Shown: piece after piece, positions 2,131 to 31,600 of the stretch
How positions within the stretch are numbered: position 1 is the stretch's first letter
How the letters are laid out: every line of letters starts with the position of its first letter
Source: Primulina eburnea
Lineage: Eukaryota > Streptophyta > Magnoliopsida > Lamiales > Gesneriaceae
Length of the DNA: 64,000 nucleotides
Assembly: GCF_022965805.1 (NCBI RefSeq)
Contig: NW_027331276.1
Span: 1 to 64,000 of the forward strand
Direction: 5' to 3'
Program-made: the position numbers and the translations under genes
The notes under the pieces: generated by a model
What the model was told of the DNA's origin: nothing
What the model saw: only the letters and a program-made list of their open reading frames with translations
The model's database searches: none

Positions 2131-3595
2131 GAATAAATAGTCCTAGGCATGCCATGCAACCTAACGACTTCTCTAATGAACAAATCCGCAATGTTTGAAG
2201 CATAATCGGTTTTATGACAAGCTATAAAATGTGCCATCTTAGAGAATTTATCCACAACAACGAAAATAGAATCCATCCCCTTCTTAGTCCTAGGCACCCC
2301 AAAATAAAGTCCATAGAAATGTCAATCCAAGTTCTTTTTAAGAATAGCACGCAAAAGTGTTCCCAAAGTGCTATTGACAACTTCAGTTTGTCCATCCGTT
2401 TGAGGATGACAAGTAGTAGAAAACAACAATTTTGTGCCAAGTTTAGACCATAAAGTATTCCAAAAGTAACTCAAGAATTTAACATCGCGACCAGAAACAA
2501 TAGTCCTAGGCATGCCATGCAACCTACCGACTTCTCTAAAGAACAAATCCGCAATGTTTGAAGCATCATCGATTTTATGACAAGCTATAAAATGTGCCAT
2601 CTTAGAGAATCTATCCACAACAACGAAAATAGAATCCCTCCCCTTCTTAGTCCTAGGCAACCTCAAAATAAAGTCCATAGAAATGTCAATCCAAGTTCTT
2701 TTTAAGAATAGCACGCAAAAGTGTTCCCAAAGTGCTATTGACAACTTCAGTTTGTCCATCCGTTTGAGGATGACAAGTAGTAGAAAACAACAATTTTGTG
2801 CCAAGTTTAGCCCATAAAGTCTTCCAAAAGAAACTCAAGAATTTAACATCGCGACCAGAAACAATAGTCCTAGGCATGCCATGCAACCTTCCGACTTCTC
2901 TAAAGAACTAATCCGCAATGTTTGAAGCATCATCGGTTTTATGACAAGCTATAAAATGTGCCATCTTAGAGAATCTATCCACAACAACAAAATAGAATCA
3001 ATCCCCTTCTTAGTCCTAGGCAACCCCAAAATAAAGTCCATAGAAATGTCAATCCAAGTTCTTTTTAAGAATAGCACGCAAAAGTGTTCCCAAAGTTCTA
3101 TTGACAACTTCAGTTTGTCCATCCGTTTGAGGATGACAAGTAGTAGAAAACAACAATTTTGTGCCAAGTTTAGCCCATAAAGTATTCCAAAAGTAACTCA
3201 AGAATTTAACATCGCGACCAGAAACAATAGTCCTAGGCATGCCATGCAACCTACCGACTTCTCTAAAGAACAAATCCGCAATGTTTGAAGCATCATCGGT
3301 TTTATGACAAGCTATAAAATGTGCCATCTTAGAGAATCTATCCACAACAACGAAAATAGAATCCATCCCCTTCTTAGTCCTAGGCAACCCCAAAATAAAG
3401 TCCATAGAAATGTCAATCCAAGTTCTTTTTAAGAATAGCACGCAAAAGTGTTCCCAAAGTGCTATTGACAACTTCAGTTTGTCCATCCGTTTGAGGATGA
3501 CAAGTAGTAGAAAACAACAATTTCGTGCCAAGTGTAGACCATAAAGTATTCCAAAAGTAACTAAAGAATTTAACATCGCGACCAGAATCAATAGT

Positions 3596-3766
3596 CCTAG
3601 GCATGCCATGCAACCTAACGACTTCTCTAATGTACAAATCCGCAATGTTTGAAGCACAATCGGTTTTATGACAAGTAGTAGAAAACAACAATTTTGTGCC
3701 AAGTTTAGACCATAAAATATTCCAAAAGTAACTCAAGAATTTAACATCGCGACCAGAAACAATAGT
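3596..3766 (-). repeat. Truncated satellite monomer (171 bp), copy 1
   Basis: It lacks 193 bp between two ATGACAAG direct repeats of the normal monomer, so TTTTATGACAAG runs straight into TAGTAGAAAACAAC. It carries the companion variants AACCTAACGAC and AATGTACAAATCC. Confidence 0.85.
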
Positions 3767-5948
3767 CCTAGGCATGCCATGCAACCTTCCGACTTCTCTA
3801 AAGAACTAATCCGCAATGTTTGAAGCATCATCGGTTTTATGACAAGCTATAAAATGTGCCATCTTAGAGAATCTATCCACAACAACAAAAATAGAATCAA
3901 TCCCCTTCTTAGTCCTAGGCAACCCCAAAATAAAGTCCATAGAAATGTCAATCCAAGTTCTTTTAAGAATAGCACGCAAAAGTGTTCCCAAAGTTCTATT
4001 GACAACTTCAGTTTGTCCATCCGTTTGAGGATGACAAGTAGTAGAAAACAACAATTTTGTGCCAAGTTTAGCCCATAAAGTATTCCAAAAGTAACTCAAG
4101 AATTTAACATCGCGACCAGAAACAATAGTCCTAGGCATGCCATGCAACCTACCGACTTCTCTAAAGAACAAATCCGCAATGTTTGAAGCATCATCGGTTT
4201 TATGACAAGCTATAAAATGTGCCATCTTAGAGAATCTATCCACAACAACGAAAATAGAATCCATCCCCTTCTTAGTCCTAGGCAACCCCAAAATAAAGTC
4301 CATAGAAATGTCAATCCAAGTTCTTTTTAAGAATAGCACGCAAAAGTGTTCCCAAAGTTCTATTGACAACTTCAGTTTGTCCATCCGTTTGAGGATGACA
4401 AGTAGTAGAAAACAACAATTTTGTGCCAAGTTTAGACCATAAAGTATTCCAAAAGTAACTCAAGAATTTAACATCGCGACCAGAAACAATAGTCCTAGGC
4501 ATGCCATGCAACCTACCGACTTCTCTAAAGAACAAATCCGCAATGTTTGAAGCATCATCGGTTTTATGACAAGCTATAAAATGTGCCATCTTAGAGAATC
4601 TATCCACAACAACGAAAATAGAATCCATCCCCTTCTTAGTCCTAGGCAACCCCAAAATAAAGTCCATAGAAATGTCAATCCAAGTTCTTTTTAAGAATAG
4701 CACGCAAAAGTGTTCCCAAAGTTCTATTGACAACTTCAGTTTGTCCATCCGTTTGAGGATGACAAGTAGTAGAAAACAACAATTTTGTGCCAAGTTTAGA
4801 CCATAAAGTATTCCAAAAGTAACTCAAGAATTTAACATCGCGACCAGAAACAATAGTCCTAGGCATGCCATGCAACCTACCGACTTCTCTAAAGAACTAA
4901 TCCGCAATGTTTGAAGCATCATCGGTTTTATGACAAGCTATAAAATGTGCCATCTTAGAGAATCTATCCACAACAACGAAAATAGAATCCATCCCCTTCT
5001 TAGTCCTAGGCAACCCCAAAATAAAGTCCATAGAAATGTCAATCCAAGTTCTTTTTAAGAATAGCACGCAAAAGTGTTCCCAAAGTTCTATTGACAACTT
5101 CAGTTTGTCCATCCGTTTGAGGATGACAAGTAGTAGAAAACAACAATTTTGTGCCAAGTTTAGCCCATAAAGTATTCCAAAAGTAACTCAAGAATTTAAC
5201 ATCGCGACCAGAAACAATAGTCCTAGGCATGCCATGCAACCTACCGACTTCTCTAAAGAACTAATCCGCAATGTTTGAAGCATCATCGGTTTTATGACAA
5301 GCTATAAAATGTGCCATCTTAGAGAATCTATCCACAACAACGAAAATAGAATCCATCCCCTTCTTAGTCCTAGGCAACCCCAAAATAAAGTCCATAGAAA
5401 TGTCAATCCAAGTTCTTTTTAAGAATAGCACGCAAAAGTGTTCCCAAAGTTCTATTGACAACTTCAGTTTGTCCATCCGTTTGAGGATGACAAGTAGTAG
5501 AAAACAACAATTTTGTGCCAAGTTTAGCCCATAAAGTATTCCAAAAGTGACTCAAGAATTTAACATCGCGACCAGAAACAATAGTCCTAGGCATGCCATG
5601 CAACCTACCGACTTCTCTAAAGAACAAATCCGCAATGTTTGAAGCATCATCGGTTTTATGACAAGCTATAAAATGTGCTATCTTAGAGAATCTATCCACA
5701 ACAACGAAAATAGAATCCATCCCCTTCTTAGTCCTAGGCACCCCAAAATAAAGTCCATAGAAATGTCAATCCAAGTTCTTTTTAAGAATAGCACGCAAAA
5801 GTGTTCCCAAAGTGCTATTGACAACTTCAGTTTGTCCATCAGTTTGAGGATGAGAAGTAGTAGAAAACAACAATTTCGTGCCAAGTTTAGACCATAAAGT
5901 ATTCCAAAAGTAACTCAAGAATTTAACATCGCGACCAGAATCAATAGT

Positions 5949-6120
5949 CCTAGGCATGCCATGCAACCTAACGACTTCTCTAAATGAACAAATCCGCAAT
6001 GTTTGAAGCATAATCGGTTTTATGACAAGTAGTAGAAAACAACAATTTTGTGCCAAGTTTAGACCATAAAATATTCCAAAAGTAACTCAAGAATTTAACA
6101 TCGCGACCAGAAACAATAGT
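5949..6120 (-). repeat. Truncated satellite monomer (about 171 bp), copy 2
   Basis: It has the same ATGACAAG deletion junction as the other truncated units. It has one extra A in CTAAATGAAC, and CATAATCGG instead of CACAATCGG. Confidence 0.85.
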
Positions 6121-7938
6121 CCTAGGCATGCCATGCAACCTTCCGACTTCTCTAAAGAACTAATCCGCAATGTTTGAAGCATCATCGGTTTTATGACAAG
6201 CTATAAAATGTGCCATCTTAGAGAATCTATCCACAACAACAAAAATAGAATCAATCCCCTTCTTAGTCCTAGGCAACCCCAAAATAAAGTCCTTAGAAAT
6301 GTCAATCCAAGTTCTTTTTAAGAATAGCACGCAAAAGTGTTCCCAAAGTTCTATTGACAACTTCAGTTTGTCCATCCGTTTGAGGATGACAAGTAGTAGA
6401 AAACAACAATTTCGTGCCAAGTTTAGCCCATAAAGTATTCCAAAAGTGACTCAAGAATTTAACATCGCGACCAGAAACAATAGTCCTAGGCAATCCATGC
6501 AACCTACCGACTTCTCTAAAGAACAAATCCGCAATGTTTGAAGCATCATCGGTTTTATGACAAGCTATAAAATGTGCCATCTTAGAGAATCTATCCACAA
6601 CAACGAAAATAGAATCCATCCCCTTCTTAGTCCTAGGCAACCCCAAAATAAAGTCCATAGAAATGTCAATCCAAGTTCTTTTTAAGAATAGCACGCAAAA
6701 GTGTTCCCAAAGTTCTATTGACAACTTCAGTTTGTCCATCCGTTTGAGGATGACAAGTAGTAGAAAACAACAATTTTGTGCCAAGTTTAGACCATAAAGT
6801 ATTCCAAAAGTAACTCAAGAATTTAACATCGCGACCAGAAACAATAGTCCTAGGCATGCCATGCAACCTACCGACTTCTCTAAAGAACAAATCCGCAATG
6901 TTTGAAGCATCATCGGTTTTATGACAAGCTATAAAATGTGCCATCTTAGAGAATCTATCCACAACAACGAAAATAGAATCCCTCCCCTTCTTAGTCCTAG
7001 GCAACCCCAAAATAAAGTCCATAGAAATGTCAATCCAAGTTCTTTTTAAGAATAGCACGCAAAAGTGTTCCCAAAGTTCTATTGACAACTTCAGTTTGTC
7101 CATCCGTTTGAGGATGACAAGTAGTAGAAAACAACAATTTTGTGCCAAGTTTAGACCATAAAGTATTCCAAAAGTAACTCAAGAATTTAACATCGCGACC
7201 AGAAACAATAGTCCTAGGCATGCCATGCAACCTACCGACTTCTCTAAAGAACTAATCCGCAATGTTTGAAGCATCATCGGTTTTATGACAAGCTATAAAA
7301 TGTGCCATCTTAGAGAATCTATCCACAACAACGAAAATAGAATCCATCCCCTTCTTAGTCCTAGGCAACCCCAAAATAAAGTCCATAGAAATGTCAATCC
7401 AAGTTCTTTTTAAGAATAGCACGCAAAAGTGTTCCCAAAGTTCTATTGACAACTTCAGTTTGTCCATCCGTTTGAGGATGACAAGTAGTAGAAAACAACA
7501 ATTTTGTGCCAAGTTTAGCCATAAAGTATTCCAAAAGTGACTCAAGAATTTAACATCGCGACCAGAAACAATAGTCCTAGGCATGCCATGCAACCTACCG
7601 ACTTCTCTAAAGAACAAATCCGCAATGTTTGAAGCATCATCGGTTTTATGACAAGCTATAAAATGTGCTATCTTAGAGAATCTATCCACAACAACGAAAA
7701 TAGAATCCATCCCCTTCTTAGTCCTAGGCACCCCAAAATAAAGTCCATAGAAATGTCAATCCAAGTTCTTTTTAAGAATAGCACGCAAAAGTGTTCCCAA
7801 AGTGCTATTGACAACTTCAGTTTGTCCATCAGTTTGAGGATGAGAAGTAGTAGAAAACAACAATTTCGTGCCAAGTGTAGACCATAAAGTATTCCAAAAG
7901 TAACTCAAGAATTTAACATCGCGACCAGAATCAATAGT

Positions 7939-8109
7939 CCTAGGCATGCCATGCAACCTAACGACTTCTCTAATGTACAAATCCGCAATGTTTGAAGCAC
8001 AATCGGTTTATGACAAGTAGTAGAAAACAACAATTTTGTGCCAAGTTTAGACCATAAAAGTATTCCAAAAGTAACTCAAGAATTTAACATCGCGACCAGA
8101 AACAATAGT
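7939..8109 (-). repeat. Truncated satellite monomer (171 bp), copy 3
   Basis: The deletion junction and flanking variants (AATGTACAAATCC, CACAATCGG) are identical to copy 1, with one T missing from the TTTTATGAC run. Confidence 0.85.
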
Positions 8110-11019
8110 CCTAGGCATGCCATGCAACCTTCCGACTTCTCTAAAGAACTAATCCGCAATGTTTGAAGCATCATCGGTTTTATGACAAGCTATAAAATGT
8201 GCCATCTTAGAGAATCTATCCACAACAACAAAAATAGAATCAATCCCCTTCTTAGTCCTAGGCAACCCCAAAATAAAGTCCATAGAAATGTCAATCCAAG
8301 TTCTTTTTAAGAATAGCACGCAAAAGTGTTCCCAAAGTTCTATTGACAACTTCAGTTTGTCCATCCGTTTGAGGATGACAAGTAGTAGAAAACAACAATT
8401 TTGTGCCAAGTTTAGCCCATAAAGTATTCCAAAAGTGACTCAAGAATTTAACATCGCGACCAGAAACAATAGTCCTAGGCATGCCATGCAACCTACCGAC
8501 TTCTCTAAAGAACAAATCCGCAATGTTTGAAGCATCATCGGTTTTATGACAAGCTATAAAATGTGCTATCTTAGAGAATCTATCCACAACAACGAAAATA
8601 GAATCCATCCCCTTCTTAGTCCTAGGCACCCCAAAATAAAGTCCATAGAAATGTCAATCCAAGTTCTTTTTAAGAATAGCACGCAAAAGTGTTCCCAAAG
8701 TGCTATTGACAACTTCAGTTTGTCCATCCGTTTGAGGATGAGAAGTAGTAGAAAACAACAATTTCGTGCCAAGTTTAGACCATAAAGTATTCCAAAAGTA
8801 ACTCAAGAATTTAACATCGCGACCAGAATCAATAGTCCTAGGCATGCCATGCAACCTACCGACTTCTCTAATGAACAAATCCGCAATGTTTGAAGCATCA
8901 TCGGTTTTATGACAAGCTATAAAATGTGCCATCTTAGAGAATCTATCCACAACAACGAAAATAGAATCCCTCCCCTTCTTAGTCCTAGGCAACCCCAAAA
9001 TAAAGTCCATAGAAATGTCAATCCAAGTTCTTTTTAAGAATAGCACGCAAAAGTGTTCCCAAAGTTCTATTGACAACTTCAGTTTGTCCATCCGTTTGAG
9101 GATGACAAGTAGTAGAAAACAACAATTTTGTGCCAAGTTTAGACCATAAAGTATTCCAAAAGTAACTCAAGAATTTAACATCGCGACCAGAAACAATAGT
9201 CCTAGGCATGCCATGCAACCTACCGACTTCTCTAAAGAACTAATCCGCAATGTTTGAAGCATCATCGGTTTTATGACAAGCTATAAAATGTGCCATCTTA
9301 GAGAATCTATCCACAACAACGAAAATAGAATCCATCCCCTTCTTAGTCCTAGGCAACCCCAAAATAAAGTCCATAGAAATGTCAATCCAAGTTCTTTTTA
9401 AGAATAGCACGCAAAAGTGTTCCCAAAGTGCTATTGACAACTTCAGTTTGTCCATCCGTTTGAGGATGACAAGTAGTAGAAAACAACAATTTTGTGCCAA
9501 GTTTAGCCCATAAAGTATTCCAAAAGTAACTCAAGAATTTAACATCGCGACCAGAAACAATAGTCCTAGGCATGCCATGCAACCTACCGACTTCTCTAAA
9601 GAACAAATCCGCAATGTTTGAAGCATCATCGGTTTTATGACAAGCTATAAAATGTGCCATCTTAGAGAATCTATCCACAACAACGAAAATAGAATCCATC
9701 CCCTTCTTAGTCCTAGGCAACCCCAAAATAAAGTCCATAGAAATGTCAATCCAAGTTCTTTTTAAGAATAGCACGCAAAAGTGTTCCCAAAGTTCTATTG
9801 ACAACTTCAGTTTGTCCATCCGTTTGAGGATGACAAGTAGTAGAAAACAACAATTTTGTGCCAAGTTTAGACCATAAAGTATTCCAAAAGTAACTCAAGA
9901 ATTTAACATCGCGACCAGAAACAATAGTCCTAGGCATGCCATGCAACCTACCGACTTCTCTAAAGAACAAATCCGCAATGTTTGAAGCATCATCGGTTTT
10001 ATGACAAGCTATAAAATGTGCCATCTTAGAGAATCTATCCACAACAACGAAAATAGAATCCCTCCCCTTCTTAGTCCTAGGCAACCCCAAAATAAAGTCC
10101 ATAGAAATGTCAATCCAAGTTCTTTTTAAGAATAGCACGCAAAAGTGTTCCCAAAGTTCTATTGACAACTTCAGTTTGTCCATCCGTTTGAGGATGACAA
10201 GTAGTAGAAAACAACAATTTTGTGCCAAGTTTAGACCATAAAGTATTCCAAAAGTAACTCAAGAATTTAACATCGCGACCAGAAACAATAGTCCTAGGCA
10301 TGCCATGCAACCTTCCGACTTCTCTAAAGAACTAATCCGCAATGTTTGAAGCATCATCGGTTTTATGACAAGCTATAAAATGTGCCATCTTAGAGAATCT
10401 ATCCACAACAACGAAAATAGAATCCATCCCCTTCTTAGTCCTAGGCAACCCCAAAATAAAGTCCATAGAAATGTCAATCCAAGTTCTTTTTAAGAATAGC
10501 ACGCAAAAGTGTTCCCAAAGTTCTATTGACAACTTCAGTTTGTCCATCCGTTTGAGGATGACAAGTAGTAGAAAACAACAATTTTGTGCCAAGTTTAGCC
10601 CATAAAGTATTCCAAAAGTGACTCAAGAATTTAACATCGCGACCAGAAACAATAGTCCTAGGCATGCCATGCAACCTACCGACTTCTCTAAAGAACAAAT
10701 CCGCAATGTTTGAAGCATCATCGGTTTTATGACAAGCTATAAAATGTGCCATCTTAGAGAATCTATCCACAACAACGAAAATAGAATCCATCCCCTTCTT
10801 AGTCCTAGGCACCCCAAAATAAAGTCCATAGAAATGTCAATCCAAGTTCTTTTTAAGAATAGCACGCAAAAGTGTTCCCAAAGTTCTATTGACAACTTCA
10901 GTTTGTCCATCCGTTTGAGGATGACAAGTAGTAGAAAACAACAATTTCGTGCCAAGTTTAGACCATAAAGTATTCCAAAAGTAACTCAAGAATTTAACAT
11001 CGCGACCAGAATCAATAGT

Positions 11020-11190
11020 CCTAGGCATGCCATGCAACCTAACGACTTCTCTAATGTACAAATCCGCAATGTTTGAAGCACAATCGGTTTTATGACAAGT
11101 AGTAGAAAACAACAATTTTGTGCCAAGTTTAGACCATAAAATATTCCAAAAGTAACTCAAGAATTTAACATCGCGACCAGAAACAATAGT
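11020..11190 (-). repeat. Truncated satellite monomer (171 bp), copy 4
   Basis: It has the same deletion junction at ATGACAAG. It is followed by a monomer with the ACAACAAAAATAGAATCAATCCCC variant, as after copies 1-3. Confidence 0.85.
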
Positions 11191-12099
11191 CCTAGGCATG
11201 CCATGCAACCTTCCGACTTCTCTAAAGAACTAATCCGCAATGTTTGAAGCATCATCGGTTTTATGACAAGCTATAAAATGTGCCATCTTAAAGAATCTAT
11301 CCACAACAACAAAAATAGAATCAATCCCCTTCTTAGTCCTAGGCAACCCCAAAATAAAGTCCATAGAAATGTCAATCCAAGTTCTTTTTAAGAATAGCAC
11401 GCAAAAGTGTTCCCAAAGTTCTATTGACAACTTCAGTTTGTCCATCCGTTTGAGGATGACAAGTAGTAGAAAACAACAATTTCGTGCCAAGTTTAGCCCA
11501 TAAAGTATTCCAAAAGTAACTCAAGAATTTAACATCGCGACCAGAAACAATAGTCCTAGGCATGCCATGCAACCTACCGACTTCTCTAAAGAACAAATCC
11601 GCAATGTTTGAAGCATCATCGGTTTTATGACAAGCTATAAAATGTGCCATCTTAGAGAATCTATCCACAACAACGAAAATAGAATCCATCCCCTTCTTAG
11701 TCCTAGGCAACCCCAAAATAAAGTCCATAGAAATGTCAATCCAAGTTCTTTTTAAGAATAGCACGCAAAAGTGTTCCCAAAGTGCTATTGACAACTTCAG
11801 TTTGTCCATCCGTTTGAGGATGACAAGTAGTAGAAAACAACAATTTTGTGCCAAGTTTAGACCATAAAGTATTCCAAAAGTAACTCAAGAATTTAACATC
11901 GCGACCAGAAACAATAGTCCTAGGCATGCCATGCAACCTACCGACTTCTCTAAAGAACAAATCCGCAATGTTTGAAGCATCATCGGTTTTATGACAAGCT
12001 ATAAAATGTGCCATCTTAGAGAATCTATCCACAACAACGAAAATAGAATCCCTCCCCTTCTTAGTCCTAGGCAACCCCAAAATAAAGTCCATAGAAATG

Positions 12100-12582
12100 T
12101 CAATCCAAGTTCTTTTTAAGAATAGCACGCAAAAGTGTTCCCAAAGTTCTATTGACAACTTCAGTTTGTCCATCCGTTTGAGGATGACAAGTAGTAGAAA
12201 ACAACAATTTTGTGCCAAGTTTAGACCATAAAGTATTCCAAAAGTAACTCAAGAATTTAACATCGCGACCAGAAACAATAGTCCTAGGCATGCCATGCAA
12301 CCTACCGACTTCTCTAAAGAACAAATCCGCAATGTTTGAAGCATCATCGGTTTTATGACAAGCTATAAAATGTGCCATCTTAGAGAATCTATCCACAACA
12401 ACGAAAATAGAATCCATCCCCTTCTTAGTCCTAGGCAACCCCAAAATAAAGTCCATAGAAATGTCAATCCAAGTTCTTTTTAAGAATAGCACGCAAAAGT
12501 GTTCCCAAAGTTCTATTGACAACTTCAGTTTGTCCATCCGTTTGAGGATGACAAGTAGTAGAAAACAACAATTTTGTGCCAA
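12100..12582 (-). pseudogene. Representative monomer ORF: integrase catalytic-core fragment
   Basis: This is one of many near-identical 160-codon open frames across the array. The first 48 or so residues are an out-of-frame reading of the neighbouring monomer. The following 112 are the true integrase core, running from [11 protein letters not shown] to AILKKNLD and then stop. It lacks the N-terminal HHCC zinc domain and the C-terminal domain, and the second catalytic Asp is Gly, so it cannot be an active integrase. Because a monomer is 364 bp (one more than 121 codons), each unit shifts the frame and the core cannot be read through several units. The open frame is best explained as inherited from the founder. 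No promoter or polyadenylation context was seen. Equivalent ORFs lie at 2322-2804, 4311-4793, 6302-6784, 6666-7148, 8654-9136, 9382-9864, 9746-10228, 11372-11854, 11736-12218, 12827-13309, 13919-14401, 15910-16392 and 17001-17483. Confidence 0.85.
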
Positions 12583-14646
12583 GTTTAGCCCATAAAGTAT
12601 TCCAAAAGTAACTCAAGAATTTAACATCGCGACCAGAAACAATAGTCCTAGGCATGCCATGCAACCTACCGACTTCTCTAAAGAACAAATCCGCAATGTT
12701 TGAAGCATCATCGGTTTTATGACAAGCTATAAAATGTGCCATCTTAGAGAATCTATCCACAACAACGAAAATAGAATCCATCCCCTTCTTAGTCCTAGGC
12801 ACCCCAAAATAAAGTCCATAGAAATGTCAATCCAAGTTCTTTTTAAGAATAGCACGCAAAAGTGTTCCCAAAGTGCTATTGACAACTTCAGTTTGTCCAT
12901 CCGTTTGAGGATGACAAGTAGTAGAAAACAACAATTTTGTGCCAAGTTTAGACCATAAAGTATTCCAAAAGTAACTCAAGAATTTAACATCGCGACCAGA
13001 AACAATAGTCCTAGGCATGCCATGCAACCTACCGACTTCTCTAAAGAACAAATCCGCAATGTTTGAAGCATCATCGGTTTTATGACAAGCTATAAAATGT
13101 GCCATCTTAGAGAATCTATCCACAACAACGAAAATAGAATCCCTCCCCTTCTTAGTCCTAGGCAACCCCAAAATAAAGTCCATAGAAATGTCAATCCAAG
13201 TTCTTTTTAAGAATAGCACGCAAAAGTGTTCCCAAAGTTCTATTGACAACTTCAGTTTGTCCATCCGTTTGAGGATGACAAGTAGTAGAAAACAACAATT
13301 TTGTGCCAAGTTTAGACCATAAAGTATTCCAAAAGTAACTCAAGAATTTAACATCGCGACCAGAAACAATAGTCCTAGGCATGCCATGCAACCTACCGAC
13401 TTCTCTAAAGAACTAAATCCGCAATGTTTGAAGCATCATCGGTTTTATGACAAGCTATAAAATGTGCCATCTTAGAGAATCTATCCACAACAACGAAAAT
13501 AGAATCCATCCCCTTCTTAGTCCTAGGCAACCCCAAAATAAAGTCCATAGAAATGTCAATCCAAGTTCTTTTTAAGAATAGCACGCAAAAGTGTTCCCAA
13601 AGTTCTATTGACAACTTCAGTTTGTCCATCCGTTTGAGGATGACAAGTAGTAGAAAACAACAATTTTGTGCCAAGTTTAGCCCATAAAGTATTCCAAAAG
13701 TAACTCAAGAATTTAACATCGCGACCAGAAACAATAGTCCTAGGCATGCCATGCAACCTACCGACTTCTCTAAAGAACAAATCCGCAATGTTTGAAGCAT
13801 CATCGGTTTTATGACAAGCTATAAAATGTGCCATCTTAGAGAATCTATCCACAACAACGAAAATAGAATCCATCCCCTTCTTAGTCCTAGGCACCCCAAA
13901 ATAAAGTCCATAGAAATGTCAATCCAAGTTCTTTTTAAGAATAGCACGCAAAAGTGTTCCCAAAGTGCTATTGACAACTTCAGTTTGTCCATCCGTTTGA
14001 GGATGACAAGTAGTAGAAAACAACAATTTTGTGCCAAGTTTAGACCATAAAGTATTCCAAAAGTAACTCAAGAATTTAACATCGCGACCAGAAACAATAG
14101 TCCTAGGCATGCCATGCAACCTACCGACTTCTCTAAAGAACAAATCCGCAATGTTTGAAGCATCATCGGTTTTATGACAAGCTATAAAATGTGCCATCTT
14201 AGAGAATCTATCCACAACAACGAAAATAGAATCCCTCCCCTTCTTAGTCCTAGGCAACCCCAAAATAAAGTCCATAGAAATGTCAATCCAAGTTCTTTTT
14301 AAGAATAGCACGCAAAAGTGTTCCCAAAGTTCTATTGACAACTTCAGTTTGTCCATCCGTTTGAGGATGACAAGTAGTAGAAAACAACAATTTTGTGCCA
14401 AGTTTAGCCCATAAAGTATTCCAAAAGTAACTCAAGAATTTAACATCGCGACCAGAAACAATAGTCCTAGGCATGCCATGCAACCTTCCGACTTCTCTAA
14501 AGAACTAATCCGCAATGTTTGAAGCATCATCGGTTTTATGACAAGCTATAAAATGTGCCATCTTAGAGAATCTATCCACAACAACGAAAATAGAATCCAT
14601 CCCCTTCTTAGTCCTAGGCAACCCCAAAATAAAGTCCATAGAAATG
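12464..14646 (-). repeat. Three-monomer higher-order repeat, two consecutive rounds
   Basis: Monomer variants repeat in the same order at a spacing of 1,091-1,092 bp. The variant with AATCCCTCCCC lies at about 13138 and 14229, and the variant with GGCACCCCAAAA at about 12799 and 13891. The 112-, 160- and 66-codon minus-strand frames starting the two rounds are nearly identical. The period equals three 364-bp monomers less the one-base deletion in the GGCACCCC type. Confidence 0.8.
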
Positions 14647-20403: not shown

Positions 20404-20408
20404 TATAC

Positions 20409-21130: not shown

Positions 21131-21157
21131 ATCGCGATTTTTTTTTTTTTTTTCAAC

Positions 21158-21162
21158 AAATC
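21158..21162. repeat. Target-site duplication AAATC (left)
   Basis: AAATC precedes the LTR TGTAGTAGCCC and recurs at 25262-25266 after ...CACTACA. Confidence 0.9.
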
Positions 21163-21247
21163 TGTAGTAGCCCGAATTCCAAATTGGGTAATTAACGGAT
21201 TAATGGTGATTAAGAAGGTTTAATGTGTAATTTTGACCGAGTCATGA

Positions 21248-21464
21248 TCGGACGGACCGAAGATGGTTCGGAAGCACCGAAGAGTTCGGAAGGTCCGAAG
21301 TGGGTTCGGTGGATCCGATCATGAGGTGTCAAGAGCAGCTGGACACGTGCATGTTCGGACGGTCCGAAGTGTATGATCGGAGGATCCGATCATGAGCTGT
21401 CAAGAGCCAATGGACACGTAGCGTTCGGACGTTCCGAAGTGTTGTTCGGAGGATCCGAACATGG
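21248..21464. promoter_or_regulatory. U3 cluster of TTCGGA...TCCGAA dyads
   Basis: At least seven short inverted repeats occur, most with 3-base spacers: TTCGGA/TCCGAA several times, ATGATCGGA/TCCGATCAT once and TGTTCGGA/TCCGAACA once. Between them is a repeated TGTCAAGAGC...GGACACGT module containing CACGTG (G-box). The cluster ends just upstream of the TATA box. Confidence 0.8.
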
Positions 21465-21465
21465 C

Positions 21466-21475
21466 CTATAAATAG
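21466..21475 (+). promoter_or_regulatory. TATA box of the 5' LTR
   Basis: CTATAAATAG lies directly downstream of the dyad cluster; transcription would start some 25-35 bases further on. Confidence 0.8.
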
Positions 21476-22603
21476 TGCTCGGATTTCTCATTTTTGACTT
21501 GCCAATTTCTTGAGTTTTCTCTCATTTTGGAGAGTTTGGAAGGTTTCTAGGGTTAGTTGTTGGTCGAGCGATAGCCAAGAGCTGCCAGGAGTAGTAGCGT
21601 AGCGGCGCCTGAGTTACGAGGCAATCGACATCAAAGGGCTGTCGACGGACGAAGGTAAACCCTAAACCTTTGGTAGTACTAGGGAGTACTGGTTTTGCTA
21701 GTCGAGCATGGTAGTATTGATTGAGTATGCTTTTGATGCGTAGGCTTGTGCTAGACCTGATTAGCGGTGTTGCGTAAGGCTAGGCTTGCTGTGATAGAGG
21801 TACGAAAGTACTATCCGAGATATCCTGGTTGAGTATACATTCATATATGTGTTGCATGAGTATTTGCTGCATTGTTATATGTCATATGATGCATGATATT
21901 ATGTCACGAGTTATGATGCATATTGCATATCATGTTGAGCCGTATCTCCTTCAAGATAGCCTTTACTGTTGAGCTGTATCTCTTTCGAGATAAGCTATAT
22001 CTTGGGGCCGCTCAGCCCTGTCTTGTGGACGCATGGACACCGAGAGTACACAGTGGCCGACGGGTCGGGAGGGCTTCGGTGGTCCGGGACATTTTTAGGT
22101 CCACGTCTGTCTTGTAGTGGATGCAGTGACCCAGAGGTGTACCGCGCGGCACTATCCACTTGGCGCCTCTAGACTGAGCATTGTTGAGATCCTTTTGTGA
22201 CTCCTGTTTCTTGACTACCCCGGTATCATGATCATAGCATGTGAATTTCATATAGGTCTGTATACTCATACTTTTGTACTGGGCGTTCTTATCGCTCACG
22301 TCCTCGGTTTTGTTTATTCTTGGACACCCCATTCCCACGGGGCAGGCCTCAGGTTGGACAGCTCAGGAGGAGCAGGAGGAGGACGTTGAGTAGCTGGTTG
22401 GTTTAGTTTATCGGTATTGTTTTGATTCGATATGGTTGTACTGGATATTTCATTTTGAGTTAGTCTAGACTTCGATTTCGATTGGGTTGTATAACTATTG
22501 TTGTTGACTATTTCCGCTGTTATCTCTGATTATTGTTAATTAGGTTAATTGCATGCTTAGTTCTTGCCTAGTAGGTGAATTCTGGAACGGGTCACTACAT
22601 TTA

Positions 22604-22615
22604 TGGTATCAGAGC
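22604..22615 (+). promoter_or_regulatory. Primer-binding site (tRNA-Met)
   Basis: TGGTATCAGAGC, four bases after the LTR end, is complementary to the 3' end of plant initiator tRNA-Met. Confidence 0.9.
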
Positions 22616-22698
22616 ATGCATACGATTTTGGGATATAGATTTCTGTTTTGGGATTTCCGTTGACCAATTTACTAGTTTCCCCATTCTATGTTGTAGCG

Positions 22699-23724
22699 AT
22701 GGCTGACCACTTTGGTGACGGGAGTAGTCAGGGGAGTGTAGGTCGATGGGGTGATCAGGACGATCATAGACGTCATCGTGAGCATCGTCATCGTCGGGAT
22801 GGTCCTAGGCGTTTCGATATGCATCGTTTCATGCAGATGGGGCCTAAGCCTTTAGTTGGCGGTGAGACTCCCGATGATGCGGAGGATTGGTTAGAGCGCA
22901 TGGAGAGTTGTTTCCGCGCATTCCAGTGCACCGATGAGCAGAAGATGGAGACCCTTAGTTTTCTTCTCGAGGGCCGTGCTCGCAGGTGGTGGCGATCGAC
23001 TTCTGCGCCGATAGTTCAGTCCCAGGGTAGAGCGACTTGGGCCGATTTCCGTGCAGCGTTCATGCAGCTGTACTTTCCTCCAGCCCTTCGCCAGGCCAAG
23101 ACGATTGAGCTCCTGAACCTTAAGCAGGGGAGTATGTCTGTTGATGAGTATCAGCAGAAATTCTTCGAGTTGTTACCCTTTGCGCCTCATATCAGTGGCA
23201 GTTCTGAAGCCAAGTACGATCATTTCCTTCAGGGCCTTAACCAGGAGATCTTTGATCGAGTCACTGTCTGTGATAATCCTACTTCGTACGATGGGTTGGT
23301 GAACCGGTGTCGTCAAGCAGAGATCAGTCTCCAGCGTGGTAGGGCTATTCTTTCTTCTAGACCTCCGAGTGTTTTGAGCCCTCGACCTCAGTCTTTCAAG
23401 AAATCTGGTTCTTCTTCTTCTGGATCTGGATCAAGGTCTAGCGGTGTTGTTCGCTTTGGTGAGAAGAAGGATTCTTGTGCGCATTGTGGGAAGAACCATC
23501 CATCGGAGCAATGCCGATTAGCAGCAGGAGCTTGTTTTCAGTGCGGAGAGATGGGTCATCTCAAGAAGAATTGTCCTCAGCTGCGAGGTGGAGCAGGATC
23601 TGGTTCTGGATCCCAGACGACTGTTCAGCAGAGGAGACAGGGTCAGGCAGTGGGTAGTTCGAATCTTCGACCTCGTGCCCAAGGTCAGGTTTTTGCGCTG
23701 AACCAGGATCAGCCTGGGATGTAA
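22699..23724 (+). CDS. Gag protein of the gag-only element (341 aa)
   Basis: The first ATG is at 22699 (MADHFGDGSSQGS); the frame extends 17 codons upstream only without an ATG. An Arg/His-rich N-terminus precedes a retrotransposon gag domain (about residues 48-190: GPKPLVGGETPDDAEDWLE, RRWW, FFELLPFAPHI). A Ser-rich basic linker follows, then two Cys/His motifs, an imperfect one (C260-C263-H267-C272) and a canonical CCHC knuckle (C279-C282-H287-C292). It ends GQVFALNQDQPGM, just where the related Tekay polyprotein runs on into protease, so the family is cut at the gag/protease boundary. The role is RNA packaging into particles; enzymes must come in trans. Copy 2 (62116-63141) is almost identical, which supports constraint or recency. 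Confidence 0.92.
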   Translation: MADHFGDGSSQGSVGRWGDQDDHRRHREHRHRRDGPRRFDMHRFMQMGPKPLVGGETPDDAEDWLERMESCFRAFQCTDEQKMETLSFLLEGRARRWWRSTSAPIVQSQGRATWADFRAAFMQLYFPPALRQAKTIELLNLKQGSMSVDEYQQKFFELLPFAPHISGSSEAKYDHFLQGLNQEIFDRVTVCDNPTSYDGLVNRCRQAEISLQRGRAILSSRPPSVLSPRPQSFKKSGSSSSGSGSRSSGVVRFGEKKDSCAHCGKNHPSEQCRLAAGACFQCGEMGHLKKNCPQLRGGAGSGSGSQTTVQQRRQGQAVGSSNLRPRAQGQVFALNQDQPGM

Positions 23725-23805
23725 TTGTTATACAGTTGTAATGAAGAATATTTGCAGTGTATTACAATGGTGTTTTATTCTCTTGCCTAGATTTCGAGGA
23801 CGAAA

Positions 23806-23825
23806 TCTTTTTAAGGGGGGGAGAA
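23806..23825 (+). promoter_or_regulatory. Polypurine tract
   Basis: A TTTTTAAGGGGGGGAGAA-type tract precedes the 3' LTR. Confidence 0.85.
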
Positions 23826-25261
23826 TGTAGTAGCCCGAATTCCAAATTGGGTAATTAACGGATTAATGGTGATTAAGAAGGTTTAATGTGTAATTTTGAC
23901 CGAGTCATGATCGGACGGACCGAAGATGGTTCGGAAGCACCGAAGAGTTCGGAAGGTCCGAAGTGGGTTCGGTGGATCCGATCATGAGGTGTCAAGAGCA
24001 GCTGGACACGTGCATGTTCGGACGGTCCGAAGTGTATGATCGGAGGATCCGATCATGAGCTGTCAAGAGCCAATGGACACGTAGCGTTCGGACGTTCCGA
24101 AGTGTTGTTCGGAGGATCCGAACATGGCCTATAAATAGTGCTCGGATTTCTCATTTTTGACTTGCCAATTTCTTGAGTTTTCTCTCATTTTGGAGAGTTT
24201 GGAAGGTTTCTAGGGTTAGTTGTTGGTCGAGCGATAGCCAAGAGCTGCCAGGAGTAGTAGCGTAGCGGCGCCTGAGTTACGAGGCAATCGACATCAAAGG
24301 GCTGTCGACGGACGAAGGTAAACCCTAAACCTTTGGTAGTACTAGGGAGTACTGGTTTTGCTAGTCGAGCATGGTAGTATTGATTGAGTATGCTTTTGAT
24401 GCGTAGGCTTGTGCTAGACCTGATTAGCGGTGTTGCGTAAGGCTAGGCTTGCTGTGATAGAGGTACGAAAGTACTATCCGAGATATCCTGGTTGAGTATA
24501 CATTCATATATGTGTTGCATGAGTATTTGCTGCATTGTTATATGTCATATGATGCATGATATTATGTCACGAGTTATGATGCATATTGCATATCATGTTG
24601 AGCCGTATCTCCTTCAAGATAGCCTTTACTGTTGAGCTGTATCTCTTTCGAGATAAGCTATATCTTGGGGCCGCTCAGCCCTGTCTTGTGGACGCATGGA
24701 CACCGAGAGTACACAGTGGCCGACGGGTCGGGAGGGCTTCGGTGGTCCGGGACATTTTAGGTCCACGTCTGTCTTGTAGTGGATGCAGTGACCCAGAGGT
24801 GTACCGCGCGGCACTATCCACTTGGCGCCTCTAGACTGAGCATTGTTGAGATCCTTTTGTGACTCCTGTTTCTTGACTACCCCGGTATCATGATCATAGC
24901 ATGTGCATTTCATATAGGTCTGTATACTCATACTTTTGTACTGGGCGTTCTTATCGCTCACGTCCTCGGTTTTGTTTATTCTTGGACACCCCATTCCCAC
25001 GGGGCAGGCCTCAGGTTGGACAGCTCAGGAGGAGCAGGAGGAGGACGTTGAGTAGCTGGTTGGTTTAGTTTATCGGTATTGTTTTGATTCGATATGGTTG
25101 TACTGGATATTTCATTTTGAGTTAGTCTAGACTTCGATTTCGATTGGGTTGTATAACTATTGTTGTTGACTATTTCCGCTGTTATCTCTGATTATTGTTA
25201 ATTAGGTTAATTGCATGCTTAGTTCTTGCCTAGTAGGTGAATTCTGGAACGGGTCACTACA
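23826..25261 (+). repeat. 3' LTR of gag-only element copy 1
   Basis: It matches the 5' LTR nearly base for base, with its own dyad cluster (23911-24127) and TATA box (24129-24138). Confidence 0.92.
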
Positions 25262-25266
25262 AAATC
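25262..25266. repeat. Target-site duplication AAATC (right)
   Basis: It pairs with 21158-21162. Confidence 0.9.
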
Positions 25267-25349
25267 TGTAGAAACCGCTACACGAAAATCGGTATTGAAA
25301 ATCCTACGAAGAATTGAATGGATACTCTTACTTGAATCAAAAACCTTGA

Positions 25350-25361
25350 GCTCTGATACCA
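25350..25361 (-). promoter_or_regulatory. Primer-binding site of the array-inserted element
   Basis: The minus strand reads TGGTATCAGAGC two bases inside the 5' LTR, complementary to initiator tRNA-Met. Confidence 0.9.
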
Positions 25362-25363
25362 AA

Positions 25364-25603
25364 TGACGTGAATCTTGATACGAATAAATAGAAAACACGA
25401 TTGTAATAAATCGCACCCTCTATTCAATTACAGTATTAAGACCCGTGTTGTTTTTCCGATCTTTGAGACAAGTTCACCTCTAAATCACGAACGATTTAGC
25501 AACAAATATTAACGATAGGAACAATCGCGCTCAAGAGAACCTCCAAAGAACCTGCCCTTGCTTATCAATCATTTGAACACCATGCTCGGCCACGTTCACA
25601 TCA
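25364..25603 (-). repeat. 5' LTR of the array-inserted element
   Basis: It is 240 bp, TGACGTGAATC...CACATCA. It pairs with 17794-18046 and is followed by TSD TTCAG at 25604-25608. Confidence 0.9.
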
Positions 25604-26453
25604 TTCAGTTTGTCCATCCGTTTGAGGATGACAAGTAGTAGAAAACAAAAATTTTGTGCCAAGTTTAGACCATAAAGTATTCCAAAAGTAACTCAAGAAT
25701 TTAACATCGCGACCAGAAACAATAGTCCTAGGCATGCAATGCAACCTTCCGACTTCTCTAAAGAACTAATCCGCAATGTTTGAAGCATCATCGGTTTTAT
25801 GACAAGCTATAAAATGTGCCATCTTAGAGAATCTATCCACAACAACAAAAATAGAATCAATCCCCTTCTTAGTCCTAGGCAACCCCAAAATAAAGTCCAT
25901 AGAAATGTCAATCCAAGTTCTTTTTAAGAATAGCGCGCAAAAGTGTTCCCATAGTTCTATTGACAACTTCAGTTTGTCCATCCGTTTGAGGATGACAAGT
26001 AGTAGAAAACAACAATTTTGTGCCAAGTTTAGCCCATAAAGTATTCCAAAAGTGACTCAAGAATTAACATCGCGACCAGAAACAATAGTCCTAGGCATGC
26101 CATGCAACCTACCGACTTCTCTAAAGAACAAATCCGCAATGTTTGAAGCATCATCGGTTTTATGACAAGCTATAAAATGTGCTATCTTAGAGAATCTATC
26201 CACAACAACGAAAATAGAATCCATCCCCTTCTTAGTCCTAGGCACCCCAAAATAAAGTCCATAGAAATGTCAATCCAAGTTCTTTTTAAGAATAGCACGC
26301 AAAAGTGTTCCCAAAGTGCTATTGACAACTTCAGTTTGTCCATCAGTTTGAGGATGAGAAGTAGTAGAAAAACAACAATTTCGTGCCAAGTGTAGACCAT
26401 AAAGTATTCCAAAAGTAACTCAAGAATTTAACATCACGACCAGAATCAATAGT

Positions 26454-26624
26454 CCTAGGCATGCCATGCAACCTAACGACTTCTCTAATGTACAAATCCG
26501 CAATGTTTGAAGCACAATCGGTTTTATGACAAGTAGTAGAAAACAACAATTTTGTGCCAAGTTTAGACCATAAAATATTCCAAAAGTAACTCAAGAATTT
26601 AACATCGCGACCAGAAACAATAGT
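26454..26624 (-). repeat. Truncated satellite monomer (171 bp), copy 6
   Basis: It has the same ATGACAAG deletion junction and companion variants as copies 1-5, here in block 2. Confidence 0.85.
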
Positions 26625-28439
26625 CCTAGGCATGCCATGCAACCTTCCGACTTCTCTAAAGAACTAATCCGCACTGTTTGAAGCATCATCGGTTTTATGA
26701 CAAGCTATAAAATGTGCCATCTTAGAGAATCTATCCACAACAACAAAAATAGAATCAATCCCCTTCTTAGTCCTAGGCAACCCCAAAATAAAGTCCATAG
26801 AAATGTCAATCCAAGTTCTTTTTAAGAATAGCACGCAAAAGTGTTCCCAAAGTTCTATTGACAACTTCAGTTTGTCCATCCGTTTGAGGATGACAAGTAG
26901 TAGAAAACAACAATTTCGTGCCAAGTTTAGCCCATAAAGTATTCCAAAAGTGACTCAAGAATTTAACATCGCGACCAGAAACAATAGTCCTAGGCATGCC
27001 ATGCAACCTACCGACTTCTCTAAAGAACAAATCCGCAATGTTTGAAGCATCATCGGTTTTATGAAAAGCTATAAAATGTGCTATCTTAGAGAATCTATCC
27101 ACAACAACGAAAATAGAATCCATCCCCTTCTTAGTCCTAGGCACCCCAAAATAAAGTCCATAGAAATGTCAATCCAAGTTCTTTTTAAGAATAGCACGCA
27201 AAAGTGTTCCCAAAGTGCTATTGACAACTTCAGTTTGTCCATCAGTTTGAGGATGAGAAGTAGTAGAAAACAACAATTTCGTGCCAAGTTTAGACCATAA
27301 AGTATTCCAAAGTAACTCAAGAATTTAACATCGCGACCAGAATCAATAGTCCTAGGCATGCCATGCAACCTAACGACTTCTCTAATGTAAAAATCCGCAA
27401 TGTTTGAAGCATAATCGGTTTTATGACAAGCTATAAAATGTGCCATCTTAGAAATCTATCCACAACAACGAAAATAGAATCCCTCCCCTTCTTAGTCCTA
27501 GGCAACCCCAAAATAAAGTCCATAGAAATGTCAATCCAAGTACTTTTTAAGAATAGCACGCAAAAGTGTTCCCAAAGTTCTATTGACAACTTCAGTTTGT
27601 CCATCCGTTTGAGGATGACAAGTAGTAGAAAACAACAATTTTGTGCCAAGTTTAGACCATAAAGTATTCCAAAAGAAACTCAAGAATTTAACATCGCGAC
27701 CAGAAACAATAGTCCTAGGCATGCCATGCAACCTTCCGACTTCCCTAAAGAACTAATCCGCAATGTTTGAAGCATCATCGGTTTTATGACAAGCTATAAA
27801 ATGTGCCATCTTAGAGAATCTATCCACAACAACAAAAATAGAATCAATCCCCTTCTTAGACCTAGGCAACCCCAAAATAAAGTCCGTAGAAATGTCAATC
27901 CAAGTTCTTTTTAAGAATAGCACGCAAAAGTGTTCCCAAAGTTCTATTGACAACTTCAGTTTGTCCATCCTTTTGAGGATGACAAGTAGTAGAAAACAAC
28001 AATTTTGTGCCAAGTTTAGCCCATAAAGTATTCCAAAAGTGACTCAAGAATTTAACATCGCGACCAGAAACAATAGTCCTAGGCATGCCATGCAACCTAC
28101 TGACTTCTCTAAAGAACAAATCCGCAATGTTTGAAGCATCATCGGTTTTATGACAAGCTATAAAATGTGCTATCTTAGAGAATCTATCCACAACAACGAA
28201 AATAGAATTCATCCCCTTCTTAGTCCTAGGCACCCCAAACTAAAGTCCATAGAAATGTCAATCCAAGTTCTTTTTAAGAATAGCACGCAAAGTGTTCCCA
28301 AAGTGCTATTGACAACTTCAGTTTGTCCATCAGTTTGAGGATGAGAAGTAGTAGAAAACAACAATTTCGTGCCAAGTGTAGACCATAAAGTATTCCAAAA
28401 GTAACTCAAGAATTTAACATCGCGACCAGAATCAATAGT

Positions 28440-28610
28440 CCTAGGCATGCCATGCAACCTAACGAATTCTCTAATGTACAAATCCGCAATGTTTGAAGCA
28501 CAATCGGTTTTATGACAAGTAGTAGAAAACAACAATTTTGTGCCAAGTTTAGACCATAAAATATTCCAAAAGTAACTCAAGAATTTAACATCGCGACCAG
28601 AAACAATAGT
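28440..28610 (-). repeat. Truncated satellite monomer (171 bp), copy 7
   Basis: It has the same junction, about 1,986 bp from copy 6, matching the roughly 1,990-bp higher-order period of block 1. Confidence 0.85.
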
Positions 28611-31600
28611 CCTAGGCATGCCATGCAACCTTCCGACTTCTCTAAAGAACTAATCCGCAATGTTTGAAGCATCATCGGTTTTATGACAAGCTATAAAATG
28701 TGCCATCTTAGAGAATCTATCTACAACAACAAAAATAGAATCAATCCCCTTCTTAGTCCTAGGCAACCCCAAAATAAAGTCCATAGAAATGTCAATCCAA
28801 GTTCTTTTTAAGAATAGCACGCAAAAGTGTTCCCAAAGTTCTATTGACAACTTCAGTTTGTCCATCCGTTTGAGGATGACAAGTAGTAGAAAACAACAAT
28901 TTCGTGCCAAGTTTAGCCCATAAAGTATTCCAAAAGTGACTCAAGAATTTAACATCGCGACCAGAAACAATAGTCCTAGGCAATCCATGCAACCTACCGA
29001 CTTCTCTAAAGAACAAATCCGCAATGTTTGAAGCATCATCGGTTTTATGACAAGCTATAAAATGTGCTATCTTAGAGAATCTATCCACAACAACGAAAAT
29101 AGAATCCATCCCCTTCTTAGTCCTAGGCACCCCAAAATAAAGTCCATAGAAATGTCAATCCAAGTTCTTTTTAAGAATAGCACGCAAAAGTGTTCCCAAA
29201 GTTCTATTGACAACTTCAGTTTGTCCATCCGTTTGAGGATGAGAAGTAGTAGAAAACAACAATTTTGTGCCAAGTTTAGACCATAAAGTATTCCAAAAGT
29301 AACTCAAGAATTTAACATCGCGACCAGAAATCAATAGTCCTAGGCATGCCATGCAACCTAACGACTTCTCTAATGAACAAATCCGCAATGTTTGAAGCAT
29401 AATCGGTTTTATGACAAGCTATAAAATGTGCCATCTTAGAAAATCTATCCACAACAACGAAAATAGAATCCCTCCCCTTCTTAGTCCTAGGCAACCCCAA
29501 AATAAAGTCCATAGAAATGTCAATCCAAGTACTTTTTAAGAATAGCACGCAAAAGTGTTCCCAAAGTTCTATTGACAACTTCAGTTTGTCCATCCGTTTG
29601 AGGATGACAAGTAGTAGAAAACAACAATTTTGTGCCAAGTTTAGACCATAAAGTATTCCAAAAGAAACTCAAGAATTTAACATCGCGACCAGAAACAATA
29701 GTCCTAGGCATGCCATGCAACCTTCCGACTTCTCTAAAGAACTAATCCGCAATGTTTGAAGCATCATCGGTTTTATGACAAGCTATAAAATGTGCCATCT
29801 TAGAGAATCTATCCACAACAACAAAAATAGAATCAATCCCCTTCTTAGTCCTAGGCAACCCAAAATAAAGTCCATAGAAATGTCAATCCAAGTTCTTTTT
29901 AAGAATAGCACGCAAAAGTGTTCCCAAAGTTCTATTGACAACTTCAGTTTGTCCATCCGTTTGAGGATGACAAGTAGTAGAAAACAACAATTTCGTGCCA
30001 AGTTTAGCCCATAAAGTATTCCAAAAGTACTCAAGAATTTAACATCGCGACCAGAAACAATAGTCCTAGGCATGCCATGCAACCTACCGACTTCTCTAAA
30101 GAACAAATCCGCAATGTTTGAAGCATCATCGGTTTTATGACAAGCTATAAAATGTGCTATCTTAGAGAATCTATCCACAACAACGAAAATAGAATCCATC
30201 CCCTTCTTAGTCCTAGGCACCCCAAAATAAAGTCCATAGAAATGTCAATCCAAGTTCTTTTTAAGAATAGCACGCAAAAGTGTTCCCAAAGTGCTATTGA
30301 CAACTTCAGTTTGTCCATCCGTTTGAGGATGAGAAGTAGTAGAAAACAACAATTTCGTGCCAAGTTTAGCCCATAAAGTATTCCAAAAGTAACTCAAGAA
30401 TTTAACATCGCGACCAGAAACAATAGTCCTAGGCATGCCATGCAACCTTCCGACTTCTCTAAAGAACTAATCCGCAATGTTTGAAGCATCATCGGTTTTA
30501 TGACAAGCTATAAAATGTGCCATCTTAGAGAATCTATCCACAACAACAAAAATAGAATCCACCCCTTCTTAGTCCTAGGCAACCCCAAAATAAAGTCCAT
30601 AGAAATGTCAATCCAAGTTCTTTTTAAGAATAGCACGCAAAAGTGTTCCCAAAGTTCTATTGACAACTTCAGTTTGTCCATCCGTTTGAGGATGACAAGT
30701 AGTAGAAAACAACAATTTTGTGCCAAGTTTAGCCCATAAAGTATTCAAAAGTAACTCAAGAATTTAACATCGCGACTAGAAACAATAGTCCTTAGGCATG
30801 CCATGCAACCTACCGACTTCTCTAAAGAACAAATCCGCAATGTTTGAAGCATCATCGGTTTTATGACAAGCTATAAAATGTGCCATCTTAGAGAATCTAT
30901 CCACAACAACAAAAATAGAATCCATCCCCTTCTTAGTCCTAGGCAACCCAAAATAAAGTCCATAGAAATGTCAATCCAAGTTCTTTTTAAGAATAGCACG
31001 CAAAAGTGTTCCCAAAGTTCTATTGACAACTTCAGTTTGTCCATCCGTTTGAGGATGACAAGTAGTAGAAAACAACAATTTCGGGCCAAGTTTAGCCCAT
31101 AAAGTATTCCAAAAGTACTCAAGAATTTAACATCGCGACCAGAAACAATAGTCCTAGGCATGCCATGCAACCTACCGACTTCTCTAAAGAACAAATCCGC
31201 AATGTTTGAAGCATCAATCGGTTTTATGACAAGCTATAAAATGTGCCATCTTAGAAAATCTAATCCACAACAACGAAAATAGATTCCTACCCTTCTTAGT
31301 CCTAGGCAAACCCCAAAATAAAGTCCATAGAAATGTCAATCCAAGTACTTTTTAAAATAGCATATCCGCTGGGTTTGACTTTGCACACCAACAGAAGAGA
31401 TGCACTGCTGCAAGTGCTGGAGTCGCTGAAGCTCGACATTGTTCTGTTGGTATGGGTGCATCTTATCCACCAATTTATTTATAGGAAAGGGAGGAAAAGA
31501 CGTTTGGGATGAGGGAATGTGAAGAGCCTAAGGTTAATTAAAGCATGCCGTCATTTATTGGGAAGGAGAATGTATCATAGCCATTAAGACCAGTGCACGT

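Follow-up and report, generated by a model that had tools for sequence, protein, structure and literature searches.

The window analysed here, 64,000 bases long, is the first part of a 100,000-base scaffold (NW_027331276.1, hereafter C746) of the Primulina eburnea assembly GCF_022965805.1, which comprises 812,487,562 bases in 1,224 contigs. It contains long arrays of a 364-bp repeat whose unit corresponds to one segment of the integrase gene of a Ty3/gypsy retrotransposon. We consider it highly probable (about 0.86) that this repeat is a high-copy, non-coding satellite, derived from a dispersed Ty3/gypsy family by tandem duplication of the segment and spread in blocks over many large, chromosome-sized contigs. 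This reading draws on the identity of the segment, the position of its ends relative to single-copy relatives, its copy number in the assembly, its clustering, its local homogenisation, and the lack of any sign of coding constraint. Long head-to-tail arrays, high copy number, and concerted evolution, three marks of satellite DNA, were all observed.

Within the window, Tandem Repeats Finder and BLAST resolved 71 head-to-tail monomer blocks, of which 53 are full length; the integrase sense is on the minus strand throughout. Block A (2129-17794; its first two bases are also the end of a flanking long terminal repeat, LTR) holds 47 monomer blocks, 35 of full length, with a mean mutual identity of 98.9%, and block B (25604-31355) holds 17, of which 12 are full length, at 96.4%. 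Blocks A and B form a single array, split by the LTR element at 17795-25603; the 5-bp target duplication of this element, TTCAG, is sequence of the interrupted monomer. Beyond 31356-36051, which is non-array DNA plus a 25-N gap, block C (36052-38405) follows directly after the gap with seven monomer blocks, six of full length. Its mutual identity is 83.9%, against 98.9% in block A, with many single-base insertions and deletions; since it is indel-rich and lies directly behind the gap, its divergence is probably a sequencing artefact of unpolished sequence. The original prediction of more than 55 monomers of 364 bp at 2131-31361 was therefore sound as to the repeat, with 64 monomer blocks in that range and seven more at 36054-38405, but the array is neither continuous there nor confined to it. 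Chance is excluded as an explanation because a 30-mer at the junction between units has 36,701 exact matches in the assembly (19,812 + 16,889), compared with 0 for the reversed control.

Identity of the unit and its parental element

In minus-strand reading, the 364-bp unit consists solely of the catalytic core of a Ty3/gypsy integrase. The representative monomer used as the query (4333-4696, minus strand) consists of 121 codons plus one nucleotide of the integrase core and starts W-I-DISMDF. Among solved structures, the Ty3 integrase (7q5b; E 7.6e-33) is its closest relative, and the Pfam rve match (E 2.9e-7, 31.1 bits) is slightly below the cut-off of 32.6. A search with the rve family, in which 150 matches were scored out of 63,929 candidates, returned eight loci, none of which matched the monomer peptide at an E value of 0.001. 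On the Ty3 alignment, with the residues that we take to be catalytic, the D-D-E triad has spacings of 61 and 36; the unit retains the first aspartate (Asp) and the glutamate, and the second Asp is replaced by glycine (Gly) in 63/64 and by serine in 1/64 of the scored window monomers. Thus, no intact triad occurs in any of the 64, although a minority Asp type elsewhere in the genome keeps it. Exact 16-mers returned 29,209 Gly copies and 3,257 Asp copies genome-wide, so that the active site is mutated in approximately 90% of typed copies (29,209/32,466). The monomer had been described as the DDE core of an integrase; the core identity stands, on the minus strand, whereas catalytic completeness does not.

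Two isolated single-copy relatives were found on contig C1, L075 at 19.68 Mb and L076 at 23.39 Mb, each with one core in the 1.6 kb examined. The alignment of the majority monomer with L075 is gapless, spans 367 bp, and contains 37 mismatches (a number derived from the alignment score; 89.5% over 352 bp by BLAST); that with L076, likewise gapless, spans 361 bp and contains 42 mismatches (88.0% over 350 bp by BLAST). In L075, the core is preceded by a zinc-binding domain and followed by an SH3-like domain that includes a GPF motif, the frame being broken between these two domains; the downstream piece of L076, the sole L076 piece scanned, likewise contains the SH3-like domain. Both relatives carry Asp where the window units have lost the second one. 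These alignments show the unit to be collinear with a segment of an element family that was identified in this genome. The gapless collinear relatives, together with the 36,701 junctions and their presence on 11 large contigs, bear out the claim that the satellite is built from exactly one integrase core.

A parent-only 33-mer had 22 exact matches, one per place, of which 19 lie on 12 large contigs and three on other scaffolds; because the match is exact, divergent parental copies would escape it. None of these places is adjacent to another, and the two relatives examined, out of the 22 places, both have a single core instead of a tandem core of the FabTR type described below. The parental family therefore seems, from such matches, to be rare and dispersed. 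Regarding its lineage, CRM elements of groups A or B are described, in the part of the source available, as having the GPY/F motif and no type II chromodomain (PMC3059260). The 22 parental matches are dispersed; a GPF motif (recognised by eye) and an SH3_Tf2-1 match are present in the three pieces of L075 and L076 scanned, which gave no chromodomain match (Pfam, E 0.01).

The coding capacity of the unit was examined in 223 full-length monomers, 47 from C746 (with the six of block C dropped), 159 from contig C16, and 17 from scaffold C747. As 364 equals 3x121+1, the reading frame shifts at every junction. In blocks A and B, a fixed-frame stop was present in 30/47 full-length monomers and a net indel not divisible by three in 21/47; the corresponding numbers among all 223 were 127 and 95. 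The 281 distinct in-frame substitutions comprised 56 synonymous, 216 nonsynonymous, and 9 stop changes, with a neutral expectation of 55.9, 210.9, and 14.3 (p=0.36), so no purifying selection on the frame was detected among these monomers. A frame-breaking deletion is present in 10/17 of the full-length C747 monomers. Accordingly, the coding relevance hinted at by the near-complete open frames of the original prediction is not supported, and a coding function was considered and disfavoured on the neutral variant spectrum. Because the second Asp is mostly Gly, the frame shifts with each unit, and the variants are neutral, we conclude that the satellite is non-coding and has lost its enzymatic function.

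Copy number, distribution and local homogenisation

The junction matches correspond to at least 13.4 Mb, or 1.6% of the assembly. In the arrays examined (C746 blocks A and B, C16, and C747), the 30-mer recovers 200/252 junctions, a rate that leaves out the unpolished block C (2/6 recovered), and scaling by this rate gives an estimate of about 46,000 units. Exact matches to a 23-mer from within the unit number 55,911, dispersed relatives being matched as well. All of these abundance figures rest on assembly sequence, not on reads.

Two rare single-base junction variants, fully listed at 47 and 37 places, provided a rough sample of genomic locations. With the first, 37/47 places fell on C1, C2, C3, C12, and C16, and C12 alone had 24; with the second, 19/37 fell on C2, C3, C4, C5, C6, C8, C12, C13, and C14. 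Junction-proven copies are thus present on 11/18 large contigs, defined as those with coordinates beyond 20 Mb. Three more contigs were matched only by a non-junction variant: C15 six times, in several cases at the spacing of the unit; C9 three times within 30 kb and once elsewhere; and C11 once. As the variant pattern lies inside the unit, these contigs were left out of the tally. The possibility of a C16-specific satellite was also considered and rejected: a word-based DNA search, which ignores words of very high frequency, had given C16 and unplaced scaffolds only, whereas exact matching revealed many more places.

The copies are clustered. Among the matches listed, those on C1 (65.78 Mb) cluster close to mid-contig, at 31.56-32.74 Mb, and only the 32.7 Mb probe of 20 placed from 10 to 40 Mb was satellite. 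Of 12 pieces of 10 kb sampled on C16 (30.17 Mb) at 24.785-25.402 Mb, 11 contained arrays, all in one orientation and interrupted by other DNA. Another 20 probes, of 1 kb each and spanning 23.0-25.8 Mb, included one that was satellite (25.12 Mb), and one junction match lies at 22.96 Mb. At C12:22.13-22.76 Mb, the satellite strand switches from plus to minus and back to plus, which suggests an inversion or a scaffolding error within the cluster. An isolated mini-array of approximately six units, four typed as Gly and one, at one end, as Asp, was observed at C1:14.0369-14.0387 Mb among the matches listed; it may represent a seed array, a remnant, or the product of a transposition.

Neighbouring copies resemble each other more than distant ones. 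On C16, mean identity was 97.3-97.4% for pairs less than 5 kb apart versus 96.3-96.6% beyond that distance (250 pairs per bin). Window monomers match those of C16 at 97.4% and those of C747 at 94.7%; because of this closer similarity, scaffold C746 may belong with C16. Seven composite units of 533-536 bp, each with a 171-bp internal duplication and a nearly identical variant pattern, were found in the window. In the first (3435-3968, minus strand), monomer positions 1-241 are joined to 63-364 across the 8-bp repeat ATGACAAG; the other six joins lie near 6022, 8010, 11092, 15266, 26526, and 28512. The exact composite junction has six matches genome-wide, 6/6 in the window, the join near 8010 being inexact, so the composite unit is private to the window and reflects local homogenisation.

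The Asp-to-Gly change, in turn, marks a subfamily. Among the matches listed for C1, those at 31.592-31.622 Mb form an Asp array without any Gly match, and Gly arrays extend from 32.0 Mb onward with a single Asp match (32.09 Mb). C747 is mixed, with 6 Asp, 7 Gly, and 1 His among 14 scored monomers; its first 6808 bases (C747:1-6808) form an array of the 364-bp unit that belongs to another subfamily, approximately 94% identical to that of the window. The decay of identity with distance, the private composite, and the separation of Asp and Gly types together bear the signature of unequal exchange with local conversion.

Retroelements in and around the array

The element that splits blocks A and B (17795-25603, minus strand) lies inside one monomer, with LTRs at 17795-18046 and 25365-25603 and the TTCAG duplication at 17790-17794 and 25604-25608. 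Nested within it is a second LTR element (21163-25261, plus strand), with LTRs at 21163-22599 and 23826-25261 and an AAATC target duplication. The LTR distance is K=0.0257 (6 differences/239 sites) for the outer element and 0.0007 (1 difference/1,436 aligned sites) for the inner one; for assumed substitution rates of 1.3e-8 and 7e-9, the outer insertion would date to approximately 1.0-1.8 and the inner one to 0.03-0.05 million years ago. The outer element shares 48-52 bp at 86.5-89.6% with the parental family of the satellite at the 3' coding end and 44-65 bp at 72-77% upstream. These matches identify it as a relative of the parental family that inserted into the satellite, and its reading frame indicates that it is apparently non-autonomous. 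Its LTRs begin with TGACG and end with CATCA. CRM LTRs are described, in the portion of the source available, as starting with TGATG and having a CATCA-like end (PMC3059260); the end of the outer element resembles these, whereas its start differs.

The two outer edges of the array are both bordered by LTR-like retroelement ends in inverted orientation. One adjoins the left edge of block A (57-2130, plus strand) and the other the right edge of block C (38405-40473, minus strand); the inverted pair (28-2127 and 38407-40473) is 89.6% alike. The left-flank end is presumably of Copia type, as judged by a motif. Further along, 43946-48208 (minus strand) contains an unbroken gag-pol-like frame of 1,420 codons from another gypsy-type element, with an SDRD motif recognised by eye in its integrase part. 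Two 760-bp direct stretches (60559-61318 and 63241-64000, the second cut by the window end) are 100% identical and related at approximately 89-95% to the inner of the two inserted elements; this pair is probably, from its identity, a very recent insertion of the inner element's family.

Origin, competing explanations and significance

A plausible history begins with a 364-bp segment inside the integrase gene, which would have been duplicated head to tail, or circularised and copied. The initial duplication probably occurred by recombination across a short microhomology. In L075, the 367-bp stretch has CTT at both ends, in the wider contexts GAACCTT and GAACTT, and removing one CTT (367-3) gives the 364-bp period exactly; this suggests that the unit was born across CTT inside the integrase gene. 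Unequal exchange, gene conversion, and/or rolling-circle reinsertion would then have expanded the duplication into large blocks, probably situated in pericentromeric heterochromatin, which retrotransposons keep splitting. The satellite reading itself is independent of the microhomology step.

Several observations weigh against parts of this account. At the corresponding ends, L076 reads CCGTGG and AGAGTTT, so the CTT pair is found in 1/2 relatives only, and neither L075 nor L076 is the founder. Many matches lie on unplaced scaffolds (10/47 and 18/37 in the two variant samples), and the clusters are heavily interrupted, with satellite in 1/5 probes inside the cluster interval of C16 and 1/2 in that of C1. 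Junction matches occur in two regions on both C3 (33.8 and 43.2-43.9 Mb) and C5 (31.8 and 40.2 Mb), and on C2 they occur at 16.7-18.0 Mb, with Asp-type copies at least at 25.1-27.4 Mb among the matches listed. One cluster per chromosome is thus not general; misassembly or pericentromeric spread is a possible cause of these split regions.

A functional interpretation, compatible with the satellite origin proposed here, is that the arrays are the centromeric repeat of the species: the blocks would bind CENH3, the integrase origin would be incidental, and a unit resembling two nucleosomes in length would have been favoured. High abundance, retroelements nested in the arrays, matches near the middle of C1, and matches at 22.96-25.40 of the 30.17 Mb of C16 are in keeping with it, as are the retrotransposon-derived (peri)centromeric repeats reported, in the parts of the sources available, in maize (PMC3648361) and potato (PMC4107277). 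Nevertheless, C3 and C5 each have two separate regions, and 7/18 large contigs yielded no junction-proven match in the samples taken; we rate this interpretation slightly below even odds. The stronger version, in which the main (peri)centromeric repeat of the whole karyotype would be a single integrase gene fragment, catalytically dead and taken from a dispersed, rare retrotransposon, with the dead type outcompeting the intact one, appears unlikely to us. As part of that version, transcription of the arrays, should it occur, could turn tens of thousands of copies, 88-90% identical to the integrase of the element, into a supply of small RNAs that keep the parent rare. A different route is offered by Lathyrus, where nine satellites have been shown, in the portion of the report available, to stem from short tandem arrays inside transposing elements that were spread by transposition and expanded later (PMC7004042). 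Such a route would suit the C1 mini-array at 14.04 Mb, which is remote from the main matches among those listed for that contig, but the single core in both relatives examined and the isolation of all 22 parent-only places make it improbable for Primulina.

Two further explanations carry still less weight. Duplicated repeat contigs could inflate the count, and both the indel-rich block C behind its gap and the many copies on unplaced scaffolds are what such an assembly artefact might produce. Yet copies are present on large contigs, the element inserted in the window has target duplications, other elements adjoin the C16 arrays at differing monomer positions, and private variants such as the composite junction exist, which leaves an artefact very improbable. 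The least credible explanation, to which we attach almost no weight, is a present or past coding function of the arrays, with selection for an integrase-like product, whether a domesticated or a dominant-negative enzyme. Open frames of up to 227 amino acids do run across unit junctions, and the type with the dead active site predominates; however, the variant spectrum is neutral, the frame shifts at every junction, and a frame-breaking deletion has spread through most of the full-length C747 monomers. The origin of the satellite from a dispersed integrase gene remains the preferred reading.

Retrotransposon-derived satellites are already known, and the following comparisons draw on the portions of the cited sources available. 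The maize repeats CRM1TR and CRM4TR, present at two and one loci, respectively, derive from the LTR and untranslated region (UTR) of centromeric Ty3/gypsy elements, and illegitimate recombination at short repeats has been proposed for their birth (PMC3648361). The 364-bp satellite resembles them in being a tandem repeat from part of a Ty3/gypsy element, in having internal-repeat variants and datable element insertions, and, with CRM1TR and CRM4TR lying at or near centromeres, in a candidate (peri)centromeric location. In contrast, the Primulina unit contains no LTR-UTR span and lies wholly within the integrase core; it thus comes from coding DNA, the parental copies identified are dispersed, and its copies number in the tens of thousands, with at least 11 large contigs carrying them. 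The FabTR satellites of Lathyrus sativus, from tandem arrays in the 3' UTR of Ogre (Ty3/gypsy) elements (PMC7004042), share an origin from Ty3/gypsy elements that are themselves dispersed; the Primulina unit differs in being of coding origin, with no tandem array in the two relatives examined. The potato centromeric satellites St3-58, St3-238, St18, and St3-294 are also retrotransposon-related, and reviews describe them as chromosome-specific, LTR- or element-derived, with units of 979 bp to 5.4 kb (PMC4107277, PMC9659126, PMC10794571), whereas the Primulina unit is 364 bp and occurs on many contigs. Closer in kind are repeats in which a coding part of a mobile element has likewise turned into a tandem repeat, namely the gag-derived rye E3900 and Aegilops repeats, LINE (long interspersed nuclear element) ORF2 satellites, and a satellite derived from CACTA Tnp2 (PMC9659126). 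Among the rows of Table 1 available from that review, no LTR-retrotransposon integrase is listed, and the word "integrase" is counted 0 times in it; no integrase-core satellite was found in the literature searched, which reached few subscription papers. New here are the source segment, its clear ends, the rare parental family, and a distribution across many large contigs.

These findings indicate that a major satellite can grow not just out of the control regions of mobile elements but also out of their protein-coding parts. The genome still contains single-copy relatives together with both an Asp-type and a dead Gly-type subfamily, so that the ends of a satellite born from an enzyme-coding segment can be read almost to the base, which makes the route of its origin, whether microhomology duplication, a circle, or passage within an element, directly testable. 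In assemblies of such genomes, matches annotated as "integrase" can be satellite DNA.

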